Shown here: in pieces, positions 43,573 to 48,584 of the stretch
How positions within the stretch are numbered: position 1 is the stretch's first letter
Layout of the letters: each line of letters opens with the position of its first letter
Source: Pontiellaceae bacterium
Lineage (GTDB): Bacteria > Verrucomicrobiota > Kiritimatiellia > Kiritimatiellales > Pontiellaceae
Direction: 5' to 3'
DNA length: 56,541 bases
Assembly: GCA_016937945.1 (NCBI GenBank)
Contig: JAFGVP010000008.1
Span: 1-56,541 of the forward strand
Program-made: the position numbers and the translations under genes
The notes under the pieces: model-generated
What the model was told of the DNA's origin: nothing
Database searches by the model: none
The model's input: the letters and a program-made list of their open reading frames with translations, nothing else

Positions 43573-44652
43573 TCATTTCCGGGCAGATCCATCCGTATAA
43601 AACGGAAGGCTGACCACCTCCGCTGGAAACTGTTTTCCACGGATTTCAACATCCAGCATGGTTCCTACGAGAGCACATTCCGGCTTTACGAATGCCATCG
43701 AAACGGCCACACCCAGACTCGGAGCCAGAGAACCGCTGCACACCGCACCGATTTCGTGCCCGGCCAGAAACACTTTATCATGTTCGCGGGCCGCCCGCTT
43801 AGAGGTCAGCTTCAGACCAACGAGCAACACGTCCGGCGCATCGAGATCAGCAACGATTCGATCCTTGCCGACAAAATCCTTTTTCAGGTCGATAAACATT
43901 CCGCGCGATGTCAAAGCCGGACTCCGCATTTCCGACAACTCGTGCCCATAAAGCGAATACCCCATTTCCAGACGGAGTGTATCGCGGGCGCCGAGTCCGG
44001 CCGGCTCAACAGAAGCATGAGAAACCAGCCGGTTCCAGAGAGATTCCACGCATTCATTCGGCAGATAAATCTCATAGCCAAACTCCCCGGTATACCCGGT
44101 CCGGCTCAGGATGAAGGAATATTCCCCTGCATCAAACTCCTGAAAACGGAAATAGCCCAGATCCGGAAGCAGACATCCAAGCACTTCCTCGAGCGCGTCC
44201 CGGGCTCCGGGTCCCTGAATATCAATTTTCGCCATCGAATCGGACAGATCCGTAAAGGTTGTTTCCGTAGAAATATTTTGCCGAATCCAGGCCGCATCCT
44301 TATCCCGGGTACCGGCATTAACGACCAGCATGTATCGGTCCTCATCCATCCGGTAGCAGGTAAGATCATCGATCGTGCCACCCTCATGGTTCAGCAAAAA
44401 ACCGTACCGAACCTGCCCAATGGCCAGTGAAGAAATACGACAGGTCAAAAGACGGTCAAGATCGGCCATAGCCGAAGAACCGGCAAGCTCGAACTCACCC
44501 ATGTGACAAATGTCAAAAACAGAGACCTTCGTACGGGTATGTTCATGCTCCTGCATGATGCCTGCATATTGGATCGGCATATCCCATCCACCGAATTCGC
44601 CCATGCGGGCGCCGACTTTCAGATGATCTGAATGAAGTGGTGTTTTTTTCAT
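43573..44652 (-). CDS. gcvT: Aminomethyltransferase, glycine cleavage T-protein
   Basis: 359 residues. It releases ammonia from the aminomethyl-lipoyl H-protein and gives 5,10-methylene-THF. Family blocks are GGWDMPIQYAGIMQEHEHTR, VSVFDICHMGEFEL, GQVRYGFLLNHEGGTIDDL, YTGEFGYEIYLP and GLGARDTLRLEMGY. The folate-binding Asp is kept. The gene order gcvT-gcvPA-gcvPB lacks gcvH, which usually sits between gcvT and gcvPA. The upstream 133-base gap, shared with the divergent kinase gene, is too short for a tandem glycine riboswitch and shows none. Confidence 0.95.
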   Translation of the reverse strand: MKKTPLHSDHLKVGARMGEFGGWDMPIQYAGIMQEHEHTRTKVSVFDICHMGEFELAGSSAMADLDRLLTCRISSLAIGQVRYGFLLNHEGGTIDDLTCYRMDEDRYMLVVNAGTRDKDAAWIRQNISTETTFTDLSDSMAKIDIQGPGARDALEEVLGCLLPDLGYFRFQEFDAGEYSFILSRTGYTGEFGYEIYLPNECVESLWNRLVSHASVEPAGLGARDTLRLEMGYSLYGHELSEMRSPALTSRGMFIDLKKDFVGKDRIVADLDAPDVLLVGLKLTSKRAAREHDKVFLAGHEIGAVCSGSLAPSLGVAVSMAFVKPECALVGTMLDVEIRGKQFPAEVVSLPFYTDGSARK

Positions 44653-44785: not shown

Positions 44786-45829
44786 ATGGCCAGATTCGCA
44801 CATATCAGCTACTGTATACTATTCCTTTTCTACGCATTATTTGTCTTTATCGCCTTCCCGTTCTTTAACATTAATGCCGCGATTCCCTCTATTGTCCTGT
44901 GCGGTCTAGGTGCTTGGATTTATGGATCAAGCAAAGGACTCAGGATTGCGTTTGCCATTATAGCATACTTCTATTTTATTTTTGATTATTATGGAGACAT
45001 CCTGATGATCTATCAGGCAAAGGCATTTGGCACCTTTACGTTTACTTTTGTGGTTATTGGCATTGGATATCTGAAAGAACAGCGCGACAAAGTAAAAACA
45101 CTTTCCGCTCTGCTGGACCAAAAAGTTTCTGAAAGAACAGAAATGCTCAATCAGTTAATCAGGCAGTTGATTGATGATGATGAATATATCAGAAGGAGTC
45201 TGGGACAGGATATTCACGATGGTCTCGGACAAAATCTTACGGGACTCCTAATTTTCAGCAACATCCTGCTGGAAGAAGTTGAAAATCAAGGAATAGACTG
45301 CATTTCAGATCTCGAAAGCATTATTCATGGTGTTCAAAAAAATCTAACATTAACCCGCCGCCTGTCACGAACACTGTTTCCTTTCAAAATGATTGAAGCA
45401 GGTCTGGACTCTGCGCTGGATGAACTTTCTGCTTACTTCTCTGAAACCACAGATACCACATTCTTGATTAATCTTGACGAGTCAGAGAAAGAGCTTTCCG
45501 ACTTTAACTTAATTCATTTTTACCGAATAGTCCATGAATGCGTCCTGAACATTCTGCACCATGACCATCCGAAAGAAATCTGCATTGTATTCACCAAACA
45601 AAATGCAAAATTCATACTCAACATTACCGCTACAGATTGTGAAAACCCGGACATTACAATTGACGACACGTATATCGAATTGGTCCGTTACAGGGCTCAG
45701 TTAATGGGAGGAGAGTTAACGACGGTGCTTAAACCGGATAACTCCTTACAGATTGAATGTTCCACCTCCGCCTTAAAGAACGAACCCTCGCAACAAATGA
45801 ACCTCATTACAGGTCTAAACCATGCCTAG
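44786..45829 (+). CDS. Membrane sensor histidine kinase, phospho-acceptor intact, ATP-binding domain degenerate
   Basis: 347 residues. About four N-terminal transmembrane helices (residues 5-95) and a coiled-coil linker (KVSERTEMLNQLIRQLI) lead to a HisKA_3 dimerisation domain with the phospho-acceptor box GQDIHDGLGQNLTGL (His144). The C-terminal domain keeps an N-box-like YRIVHECVLNILHH (Glu251, Asn255). The D-x-G-x-G and G-x-G-L boxes are lost: the region reads ITATDCENPDITIDDTYIELV. It therefore looks unable to bind ATP normally. Its layout and linker match the next gene, with which it overlaps by eight bases, so the two are tandem duplicates. The gene is visibly A+T-rich compared with its surroundings. 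No response regulator is in the window. Confidence 0.8.
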   Translation: MARFAHISYCILFLFYALFVFIAFPFFNINAAIPSIVLCGLGAWIYGSSKGLRIAFAIIAYFYFIFDYYGDILMIYQAKAFGTFTFTFVVIGIGYLKEQRDKVKTLSALLDQKVSERTEMLNQLIRQLIDDDEYIRRSLGQDIHDGLGQNLTGLLIFSNILLEEVENQGIDCISDLESIIHGVQKNLTLTRRLSRTLFPFKMIEAGLDSALDELSAYFSETTDTTFLINLDESEKELSDFNLIHFYRIVHECVLNILHHDHPKEICIVFTKQNAKFILNITATDCENPDITIDDTYIELVRYRAQLMGGELTTVLKPDNSLQIECSTSALKNEPSQQMNLITGLNHA

Positions 45830-46838
45830 ACCCAATAAACATATCATCTATTACCTGATATCTTGGGCAGCATATATCTTTTTCGTTTATTGGATGTTTC
45901 CGGTATTCAATATCACCGTCATGGAGGCATCAATCGCACTGAGCATGTTTGGAGCATGGCTGTTCGGCTACTCCGGCGCGATTTTCACAACCCTTATTAC
46001 CATTCCATTTCATTACGTGATGTTGCGACATTTTTCAGATACCCCAGCCCTGTGGAATGAGGCATTCAACCCGTTTGGTATATCGTCGCAAATCTTTATT
46101 TCCTTCTTGATAGCGCTACTTAGACATACCCGTATAAAGCTTGAAAACCTTAACATTGCCCTTGAAGAAAAAGTCTCCCAAAGAACGGAAGAACTGAACC
46201 GTATCCAGAATTATGTCGTGCGAAACAATGAAAGTGCGCAGGTAATGCTGAGTCACATGCTCCTGAATGACATCGGCGCATCCCTGAAGGGACTTCAATC
46301 AGACTGCGACCGTTTTCTTAATAAACTTGTATTCAAAAGCAACTCTGTGACGCATCAAACAGCCAAACTGAACGATATGATAAGGCGAAGCACCCTCATG
46401 ATTGAGACGCTCGGATTCATGGATCATTTTTTCAAAACAGAAGGTTATGACTACACTGATGCACTGAACGATGTGATGCGGCACATGAAGGAATCGACCA
46501 AAACAGATTTTATCGTGCGAATAGAACCTGAATCAAAAAAAATCCCCTTGCATATCCAACATCAGCTTTATCGCATTACTCAGGAGGCGATAACGAATGC
46601 GGTTCGGCACGGCAAGGCATCCAAAGTTTCGATCGAACTAAGCATCAAAGACGGTCGATACGACCTATCCGTAATCAACGATGGTACACCGATGCCGCCG
46701 GACATTGAAAAAGGGCTTGGTATGCGATTGATGCAGCACCGGACCGAACAGCTCGGCGGAACGCTGAACCTGACGCAGCACACAAATGGGAATACCCTGC
46801 TTCACTGCACCATTCCGGTTCCAGAGGCATGCTCATAA
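45822..46838 (+). CDS. Membrane sensor kinase, ATPase domain intact, phospho-acceptor histidine lost
   Basis: 338 residues with the same layout as the preceding gene: about four membrane helices (residues 8-100, sharing FP-FNI and GAW-GYS blocks with it), then the linker KVSQRTEELNRIQNY. In the dimerisation box the aligned residue reads SHMLLNDIGASLKGL: Leu148 replaces the phosphorylated His and Asn149 the following Asp. The HATPase domain is complete: QEAITNAVRHGKAS (N-box Asn259), VINDGTPMPPD (Asp287-Gly288) and KGLGMRLMQHRTEQLGGTL. Such a protein could donate phosphate only in trans, most obviously to the first kinase. It starts inside the preceding stop, which implies coupled, near equimolar synthesis. 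cstA follows on the same strand. Confidence 0.8.
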   Translation: MPRPNKHIIYYLISWAAYIFFVYWMFPVFNITVMEASIALSMFGAWLFGYSGAIFTTLITIPFHYVMLRHFSDTPALWNEAFNPFGISSQIFISFLIALLRHTRIKLENLNIALEEKVSQRTEELNRIQNYVVRNNESAQVMLSHMLLNDIGASLKGLQSDCDRFLNKLVFKSNSVTHQTAKLNDMIRRSTLMIETLGFMDHFFKTEGYDYTDALNDVMRHMKESTKTDFIVRIEPESKKIPLHIQHQLYRITQEAITNAVRHGKASKVSIELSIKDGRYDLSVINDGTPMPPDIEKGLGMRLMQHRTEQLGGTLNLTQHTNGNTLLHCTIPVPEACS

Positions 46839-46895
46839 TCGACTTCCAAGCCACTTAAAAAACCGCTAGAAATGCGTCTTTATGAAGGGAGTGGA

Positions 46896-48584
46896 ATGGT
46901 GAATTCACTTTTATTGGCGACCCTGTCGGGCGTTTTATACCTAATTGCCTATCATACCTATGGACGATTTCTATCAAGAAAAATATTCCGGATCGATCGC
47001 GCTCGTAAGTGCCCCAGCGAAACCCACCATGACGGCATTGACTTTGTGGCCACGGATAAAACCGTCCTGTTTGGTCACCACTTCACGTCAATCGCCGGAA
47101 CCGGACCGATCGTGGGCCCCGCCATCGCAATTATCTGGGGATGGCTTCCTGCACTGATCTGGATTCTGATTGGATCCATTTTCATGGGTGCGGTTCACGA
47201 CTTCGGCGCCATGGTCATTTCCCTTCGAAACGAAGGGCGTACAATAGGAGATCTGGCAGGGAATATTATCGGCAAACGGGTAAAGTATCTGTTTCTTCTG
47301 ATCATCTTTTTTGCTTTATGGATCGTGGTCGCCATCTTCGGCGTCGTTATTGCATCTGTCTTCAGTTTTTATCCGGAATCCGTGGCTCCGGTCTGGGCTC
47401 AACTCCCCATTGCCGTGGGACTTGGCTACATCGTGTATAAAAAGGGACGATCACATCTCAGCTCCGGCATCATCGCGACGATGCTGCTGTATGGCATCAT
47501 GATTGCTGTGGCTCTTTTCCCGTTTAAACTGCCATCCGTCTCCACCGGTGTATGGGTTTTGATTCTGCTGATCTATGCATATATCGCCTCCACATTGCCG
47601 GTAACCGCCCTGCTCCAACCGAGGGACTACATCAATGCCTTTCAGCTGTGTGTTGCCATGCTCCTGTTGACGCTGGGCGTGATTATCAAACATCCGCCGA
47701 TGGTTGCGCCGGCCATGCAACTGGATGCTCCGGGCGCCCCGAACCTAATTCCACTGCTGTTTATCACCGTGGCATGCGGCGCAATTTCCGGGTTTCACTG
47801 TCTCGTTTCATCCGGCACTTCTTCCAAACAGTGCGATCTTGAAACCAGCGCAATGCCGATCAGCTATGGCGGCATGCTCCTTGAGGGAATGCTGGCCGTA
47901 CTGGTGATCCTAGCCTGCGGCGCAGGCATCGGGCTGGGCCTGCAAAAAGGCGATGCCCTGCTTACCGGAACTGCCGCATTCAGCGCCCAATATGAAAGCT
48001 GGCAGGCAGCCGGCGGCCTAGGGGCAAAAATTGCAGCGTTTGTATCGGGGGCAACCAACTTGATCAGCGGAACCGGAATCCCTGCTGGAGTCGCCACCAC
48101 ACTGATGGGAGTTTTCGTGGCTTCATTTGCGGCAACAACGCTGGATACGGCGACTCGGCTGCAGCGCTATGTTGTTTCAGAAATTGCCATCAGCTGCAGA
48201 CTTCCGGCGCTTGGGAAAAAGCATCCGGCAACCTTGATTGCTGTAATCAGTGCATTGCTACTCGCATTTTCAACCGGGGCCGACGGCAAAGGTGCACTCG
48301 CACTCTGGCCGCTGTTCGGAGCAGTCAACCAGCTTCTTGGCGGACTGGCCCTGTTGGTGATCACCATCTGGCTGGCCCGGAATAAGATTCCCGTCCTTTT
48401 CACAGCAATCCCGATGGTATTCATGATCGCCATGACCGGATGGGCGATGGCGCTGAATCTGGCTCAATTCATGAGAGAGAGCAACTGGATGCTGTTTTCC
48501 ATCGGCATCGTGATTACCATTCTTGAACTCTGGATGGTGGTTGAAGGAGTGATCGTGCTTGCGCGTTTGCGGCGCAAACCCTAG
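46896..48584 (+). CDS. cstA: CstA-family carbon starvation / pyruvate-type transporter
   Basis: 562 residues with about 16 transmembrane helices. Family landmarks are [77 protein letters not shown] and [19 protein letters not shown]. CstA and BtsT are peptide or pyruvate importers induced on starvation and commonly controlled by two-component systems. GGGAG before the ATG at 46896 favours this start; an ATG eight codons earlier is possible. It follows the paired kinases by 57 bases on the same strand, which suggests they control it. folE lies 25 bases downstream. Confidence 0.92.

Follow-up and report, generated by a model that had tools for sequence, protein, structure and literature searches.

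Two overlapping sensor kinase genes, here called A and B, lie in a 56,541-nucleotide stretch of DNA from a Pontiellaceae bacterium (contig JAFGVP010000008.1 of assembly GCA_016937945.1, which has 183 contigs; the stretch is hereafter the window), and each lacks catalytic residues that the other has kept. Bacterial sensor kinases are generally regarded as self-sufficient homodimers. We think it probable that A and B are instead the two parts of one obligate, reciprocally decayed HisKA_3 kinase, in which A, phosphorylated in trans by B, is the phosphate donor for a response regulator whose gene lies elsewhere in the genome.

Both genes are on the forward strand. Gene A (44786..45829, 347 amino acids) encodes a membrane sensor part, a DHp domain with an intact acceptor box (GQDIHDGLGQNLTG, 45203..45244; the His144 codon is at 45215-45217, and a phosphatase-type Gln149 follows) and an ATPase-like domain (45386..45778, approximate limits taken from the model) from which the G1 and G2 boxes are gone, the N-box Asn and His being retained in the window copy (HECVLNILHH). 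Gene B (45822..46838, 338 amino acids) shares eight bases with the end of A (45822..45829) and encodes a membrane sensor part, a DHp domain with Leu148 (codon 46263..46265) as the counterpart of His144, and an ATPase domain with an N-box (QEAITNAVRH, 46581..46610), a G1 box (Asn286-Asp-Gly, 46677..46685; control kinases have Asp at the Asn286 position) and a G2 box (Gly298-Leu-Gly300, 46713..46721). When re-checked in the sequence, the coordinates, strand, overlap and motifs agreed with a preliminary description of the window, which had also proposed that the two genes are duplicates.

The duplication is borne out by both comparisons made: A and B are homologous across nearly their full length (23% identity, BLASTP E 5e-30), and profile–profile alignment with hhalign (probability 100, E 7.5e-63) is gapless in the region of the acceptor box and pairs A His144 with B Leu148. 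Judged by these alignments, A and B are tandem paralogues. AlphaFold monomer models (predicted local distance difference test, pLDDT, 87.5 for A and 81.7 for B) have N-terminal helices, a long helix running into the DHp hairpin and an ATPase-like fold. The four membrane helices proposed for each protein are plain in the model of A; in that of B, helix 34-71 is unbroken, so that four crossings are only putative there. Matches to the DesK entry 7ssi start at residue 147 of A and 151 of B, both opposite DesK 190, so that the four-residue offset equals the one in the sequence alignment. Pfam assigns the window copy of A to HisKA_3 (plus DivIC below the cut-off) and that of B to HATPase families only.

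For the genus as a whole, 26 complete A proteins, 19 complete B proteins and 16 control kinases (13 from genomes with both genes, the rest from G009, G013 and G023) were aligned with MAFFT. N-terminal extensions of several long open reading frames were trimmed to the family start, and five fragments were dropped before counting: A cut by contig ends in G023 and G002, B likewise in G002, and A remnants in G001 and G027. The acceptor His is present in 26/26 A, 0/19 B and 16/16 control kinases, and Gln at H+5 in 26/26, 1/19 and 16/16, respectively. On the ATPase side the N-box Asn is found in two of the 26 A proteins, the G1 Gly in 18, Gly298 in one and Gly300 in none; B (19/19) and the control kinases (16/16) have all four. 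The preliminary description, which had A keeping its acceptor box without either glycine box and B keeping its ATPase boxes with Leu at the acceptor site, thus extends from the window to the genus, and what can be seen of the three contig-cut fragments matches the same pattern. Domain assignments (Pfam, E up to 0.01 for each protein) divide in the same way: HisKA_3 in 26/26 A and 1/19 B, HATPase_c in 1/26 A (E 0.0068) and 19/19 B, and both in the eight control kinases scanned (of 16). CheA-type Hpt (P1) and CheW-like P5 domains were found in none of the 26 A and 19 B proteins at this threshold. Variability is low in the acceptor box of A and the G2 region of B, with a column entropy in the acceptor box of 0.99 bits for A versus 2.16 for B, and in the G2 region of 1.23 for B versus 2.39 for A. 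It is hard to ascribe to chance a pattern common to all 26 complete A and 19 complete B sequences, and on that ground we hold that it exceeds chance.

A genuine His at the acceptor site of B was looked for and not found, either in the 19 aligned proteins or in the hhalign pairing of the window copies, with which the 7ssi offset agrees; from H-12 to H+23 no position has His in more than four of the 19 B proteins. In the window copy of B, alone among the 19, a His stands three residues ahead of the acceptor position (SHMLLND), and B of G017 has one a single residue past it. In DHp helix 1 of B the regulator-facing residues, named after the DesK-DesR structures in the part of that work used here (PMC5231405), are lost; Leu at H+7 and H+17, Met/Leu at H+10 and Ser/Cys at H+14 are kept.

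The reciprocal losses travel together in the genomes with the pair, a check that the preliminary description had suggested. We searched 58 relatives with A and with B; among the 28 genomes of the genus (including that of the window, and with many incomplete assemblies), both genes occur in 20 (in G002 on two contig ends), a contig-cut A occurs in one (G023) and neither gene in seven. A or B alone was found in none of these 28 genomes, the A of G023 being cut by a contig end. The host belongs to the same genus as Pontiella sulfatireligans, whose cultured type strain F21 has the pair. Matches to the A profile that reach the membrane part include, among named records, 13 contigs of Pontiella, Pontiellaceae and Kiritimatiellales, P. 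sulfatireligans F21(T) being one source. A B-profile search of 288 genomes of the class gave no membrane-part match outside the genus among the matches listed, and at 24 loci outside the genus (single contig scan) the kinases are solitary, of the usual kind and with different sensor parts, one being fragmented.

In all 19 genomes with complete sets A precedes B, and B is single-copy. Complete A copies number one in 14 genomes, two in G008, G016 and G027, and three in G004 and G024. Short remnants of extra A copies stand next to intact A and B in G001 (L080:10086-10349) and G027 (L075:9657-10115). The A/B junction is clear only in the seven relatives with an untrimmed B, because long open reading frames were trimmed to the family start: six (L071, L072, L077, L078, L080 and L084) have a four-base overlap and one (L086) a two-base gap. 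The overlap in the window might serve to balance the amounts of A and B, a suggestion to be set beside the two or three A per B in five genomes.

A and B are both under purifying selection. Between G024 and G027 the ratio of nonsynonymous to synonymous rates (dN/dS) is 0.193 and 0.181 for two pairs of A, 0.088 for B, 0.175 for the control kinase and 0.082 for the candidate regulator discussed below; by part it is 0.230 and 0.290 for the ATPase-like domain of A and 0.089 for the coil and DHp domain of B, all these values being rough because dS is near 1. Missing motifs in each gene, together with the A remnants in G001 and G027, would be expected if A and B were decaying pseudogenes whose complementarity is coincidental, but the frames are open, 26 A and 19 B share the same losses and every part measured has a dN/dS well below 1. 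We reject this explanation on conservation and dN/dS and give it practically no chance.

The pair would be explained by an old tandem duplication after which each copy lost what the other kept. B forms one clade (100/99), and the subtrees of A and B contain the same three main genome groups with small differences within groups; the duplication therefore predates the dispersal of the pair within the genus. With one A taken per genome, the correlation of A and B distances given gcvT is 0.792 (17 genomes; none of 5000 permutations reached this value). In the mechanism that we propose, A would be the phospho-acceptor, regulator-docking and probably phosphatase subunit (Gln at H+5), and B the ATP-binding subunit, whose DHp helices would act as dimer partner only. 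On a signal, the ATPase domain of B would act in trans on His144 of A and phosphorylate it, most likely inside an A:B heterodimer, and phospho-A would hand the phosphate to a separately encoded regulator, which A may also dephosphorylate.

A 1:1 heterodimer as the active form is our reading of sequences and monomer models, and we favour it over interacting homodimers because A and B share membrane, linker and DHp layout. Homodimers of A and of B could instead meet in the membrane, the B dimer phosphorylating the A dimer, which would still make an obligate split kinase. CheA3 and CheA4 of Rhodobacter sphaeroides, of which CheA4 phosphorylates CheA3, are a precedent: biochemically, neither autophosphorylates singly and the mixture does (PMC3591291). 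Two or three A per B in five of the 19 complete-set genomes also fit, 1:1 pairing not being needed, and so do the presumed DHp core positions kept in B, which a homodimer would need too. Against this, the shared layout and the core positions suit helix co-packing between A and B; the point is not decisive, and we regard interacting homodimers as unlikely.

Genomes with two or three A would, under the heterodimer mechanism, have a single B serving several A with different membrane heads. Different heads are seen in G024, in which two tandem A copies (L083:8814-9821 and L083:9840-10841) have very different membrane parts (dN 0.77, dS 2.8) and near-identical coil and DHp regions (dN 0.03, dS 0.13). 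The pattern suggests gene conversion or a swap of heads, with the kinase half held uniform; the overall dN/dS of 0.393 for these copies (A2/A3) is not comparable with the values above because the parts differ in history. Tentatively, and with slightly less than even confidence, we suggest that a single ATP-using B works with between one and three interchangeable sensor-acceptor A proteins from the same gene row, inputs being added by duplication of A and change of its membrane head while its kinase half stays uniform.

As for the regulator, nine of the nine other HisKA_3 kinases above the Pfam cut-off in the genome of the window adjoin a GerE regulator gene. A and B have no such neighbour, nor does one HisKA_3 match below the cut-off (on C106), and neighbourhood clustering, in which only some of the clustered neighbours were named, brought no conserved linked response regulator to notice. 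The best candidate is an orphan NarL-type regulator with receiver and GerE domains (G000:C179:4917-5573). All 20 relatives that have A/B or a fragment of A possess an orthologue (52-65%), as do two of the seven others (G009 and G013); Fisher's test gives p 2e-4 (counting the genome of the window, uncorrected for relatedness), and the same test gives p 0.10 for the control kinase. In the stretches fetched around this regulator, in 20 of the 23 genomes, no relative of these kinases was found. In 13 of 20 of them (L220-L239) the gene before it belongs to cluster c1, whose members usually have some 330-350 amino acids and are presumably permease-like. Two other orphan NarL-type regulators (L098 and L102) were set aside, as their orthologues of at least 50% do not track A/B (28 genomes each, 18 of the genus). 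The receiver of the one at L102:1402-2103 (G000:C102) seemingly has Asn at the place of the phospho-Asp (VLVMNISL) and is possibly a pseudo-receiver; a caspase-like gene lies beside it.

Two further explanations would leave B without a phosphorylating role. ChpT of Caulobacter resembles A in having a kinase fold and an acceptor His without ATP binding (predicted in the case of A), and A could be a ChpT-like phosphotransferase or phosphatase fed by the receiver of another kinase, with B as its ATP-binding regulator. ChpT, unlike A, is not membrane-bound; it takes phosphate from the CckA receiver and not from an ATPase paralogue. We consider this improbable. Non-catalytic modulators of complete kinases are also known, DivL and RetS among them, and A and B might both act in this way on a third, complete kinase. 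Complete HisKA_3 kinases occur in the same genomes, and ChrS/HrrS provides a precedent for a partnership of pseudokinase and kinase (PMC9491836). But the control paralogue was not found in seven of the 21 genomes with A/B or an A fragment (other complete kinases might fill the role), and a non-catalytic modulator would not need the acceptor and regulator face kept in A or the N and G2 boxes kept in B. This explanation seems to us very improbable indeed.

Several observations weigh against an obligate A/B kinase with the C179 regulator as its target. The G1 Asp is replaced by Asn in 19/19 B proteins (it is Asp in 16/16 control kinases and 25/25 outside sequences), and ATP binding by B may therefore be weak. 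AgrC has the same Asn and yet is a working kinase, with an ATP affinity likely tied to the energy level of the cell according to the part of the study concerned (PMC10482373); by analogy, one may speculate that B is sensitive to the ATP level. In the A nearest to that of the window (L070:7763-8776 of G011) the residue following the acceptor His is Asn instead of Asp. The best tree does not unite all A proteins in a single clade (two changes), so that loss of the ATPase function of A may have happened repeatedly, though the approximately unbiased test does not reject a single clade (p-AU 0.237). The A–B distance correlation may be due partly to linkage and fast evolution, and absence calls for A/B depend on incomplete assemblies. 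The candidate regulator is unlinked to A/B, and G013 has its nearest orthologue (65%) and an assembled gcvT site without A/B. Its distance correlations given gcvT are modest, at 0.374 with A (11 of 5000 permutations) and 0.479 with B (3 of 5000). Partial correlations with the control kinase (fewer genomes) are 0.173 for A, 0.025 for B and 0.368 for the regulator; the last being similar, the correlation of the regulator with A/B is no specific evidence.

Naturally split kinases are already known (PMC3591291), and what seems new here is a pair of membrane DHp paralogues with reciprocal catalytic losses. CheA3/CheA4 likewise distribute acceptor and ATPase functions over two proteins, but they are cytoplasmic chemotaxis (Hpt) kinases from which whole domains are missing, whereas A and B are membrane HisKA_3 paralogues, encoded by overlapping neighbours, that have kept all domains and lost complementary catalytic residues. 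The split CheA Hik36/Hik43 of Synechocystis, as partly described in PMC7656254, also places one kinase function on two genes; these lie apart, are of CheA type and represent a physical split rather than reciprocal decay of duplicates. DesK (HisKA_3) shares with A the fold of the DHp and ATPase domains and an acceptor His with Asp beside it, Gln at H+5 and a docking Leu at H+12 (PMC5231405); unlike A/B, it is a single complete protein that self-dimerizes. ChrS and HrrS are kinase paralogues of which one has no functional ATPase domain; this case arose in laboratory evolution, and HrrS is complete. The native proteins form heterodimers by two-hybrid assay, and an interaction of truncated ChrS was not seen, in the portion of PMC9491836 used. 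HisKA proteins without a HATPase domain number 1,556 of 42,417 in a database count (PMC3591291 and PMC7656254), and a paper on Pontiella agarivorans mentions kinases in general only, in the excerpt consulted (PMC10880615). Among the matches listed from open-licence PubMed Central, none concerned a reciprocally decayed membrane DHp kinase pair or the Pontiella A/B pair. A genus-wide pair with opposite losses amounts to a trans-complementation experiment made by nature. If our reading is true, a membrane DHp kinase is able to become an obligate heteromer, ATP use and phosphotransfer fall to distinct, named subunits in a natural setting, and the neutral-ratchet view of obligate complexes becomes testable.

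No RNA family of Rfam matched the window at gathering scores. The genes on either side of the pair are outside the kinase. Upstream and divergent lies gcvT (43573..44652, reverse strand), which we take to encode the glycine-cleavage T protein; among 20 stretches fetched from relatives, 16 have its cluster next to the pair. A CstA-family transporter gene (46872..48584, forward strand) starts 33 bases downstream of B. The gene after B belongs to the cstA cluster in 11 of the 20 stretches (two of these are short open reading frames), and CstA was therefore dropped as an obligatory partner of A/B. Among the genomes without the pair, gcvT was not found in G009 and G015; its site has a more distant CstA-like gene in G013 and another open reading frame in G014, and in G010, G019 and G022 (L244, L242 and L243; genomes of 1.1-1.3 Mb) cstA is directly divergent from gcvT, with no A/B between them.
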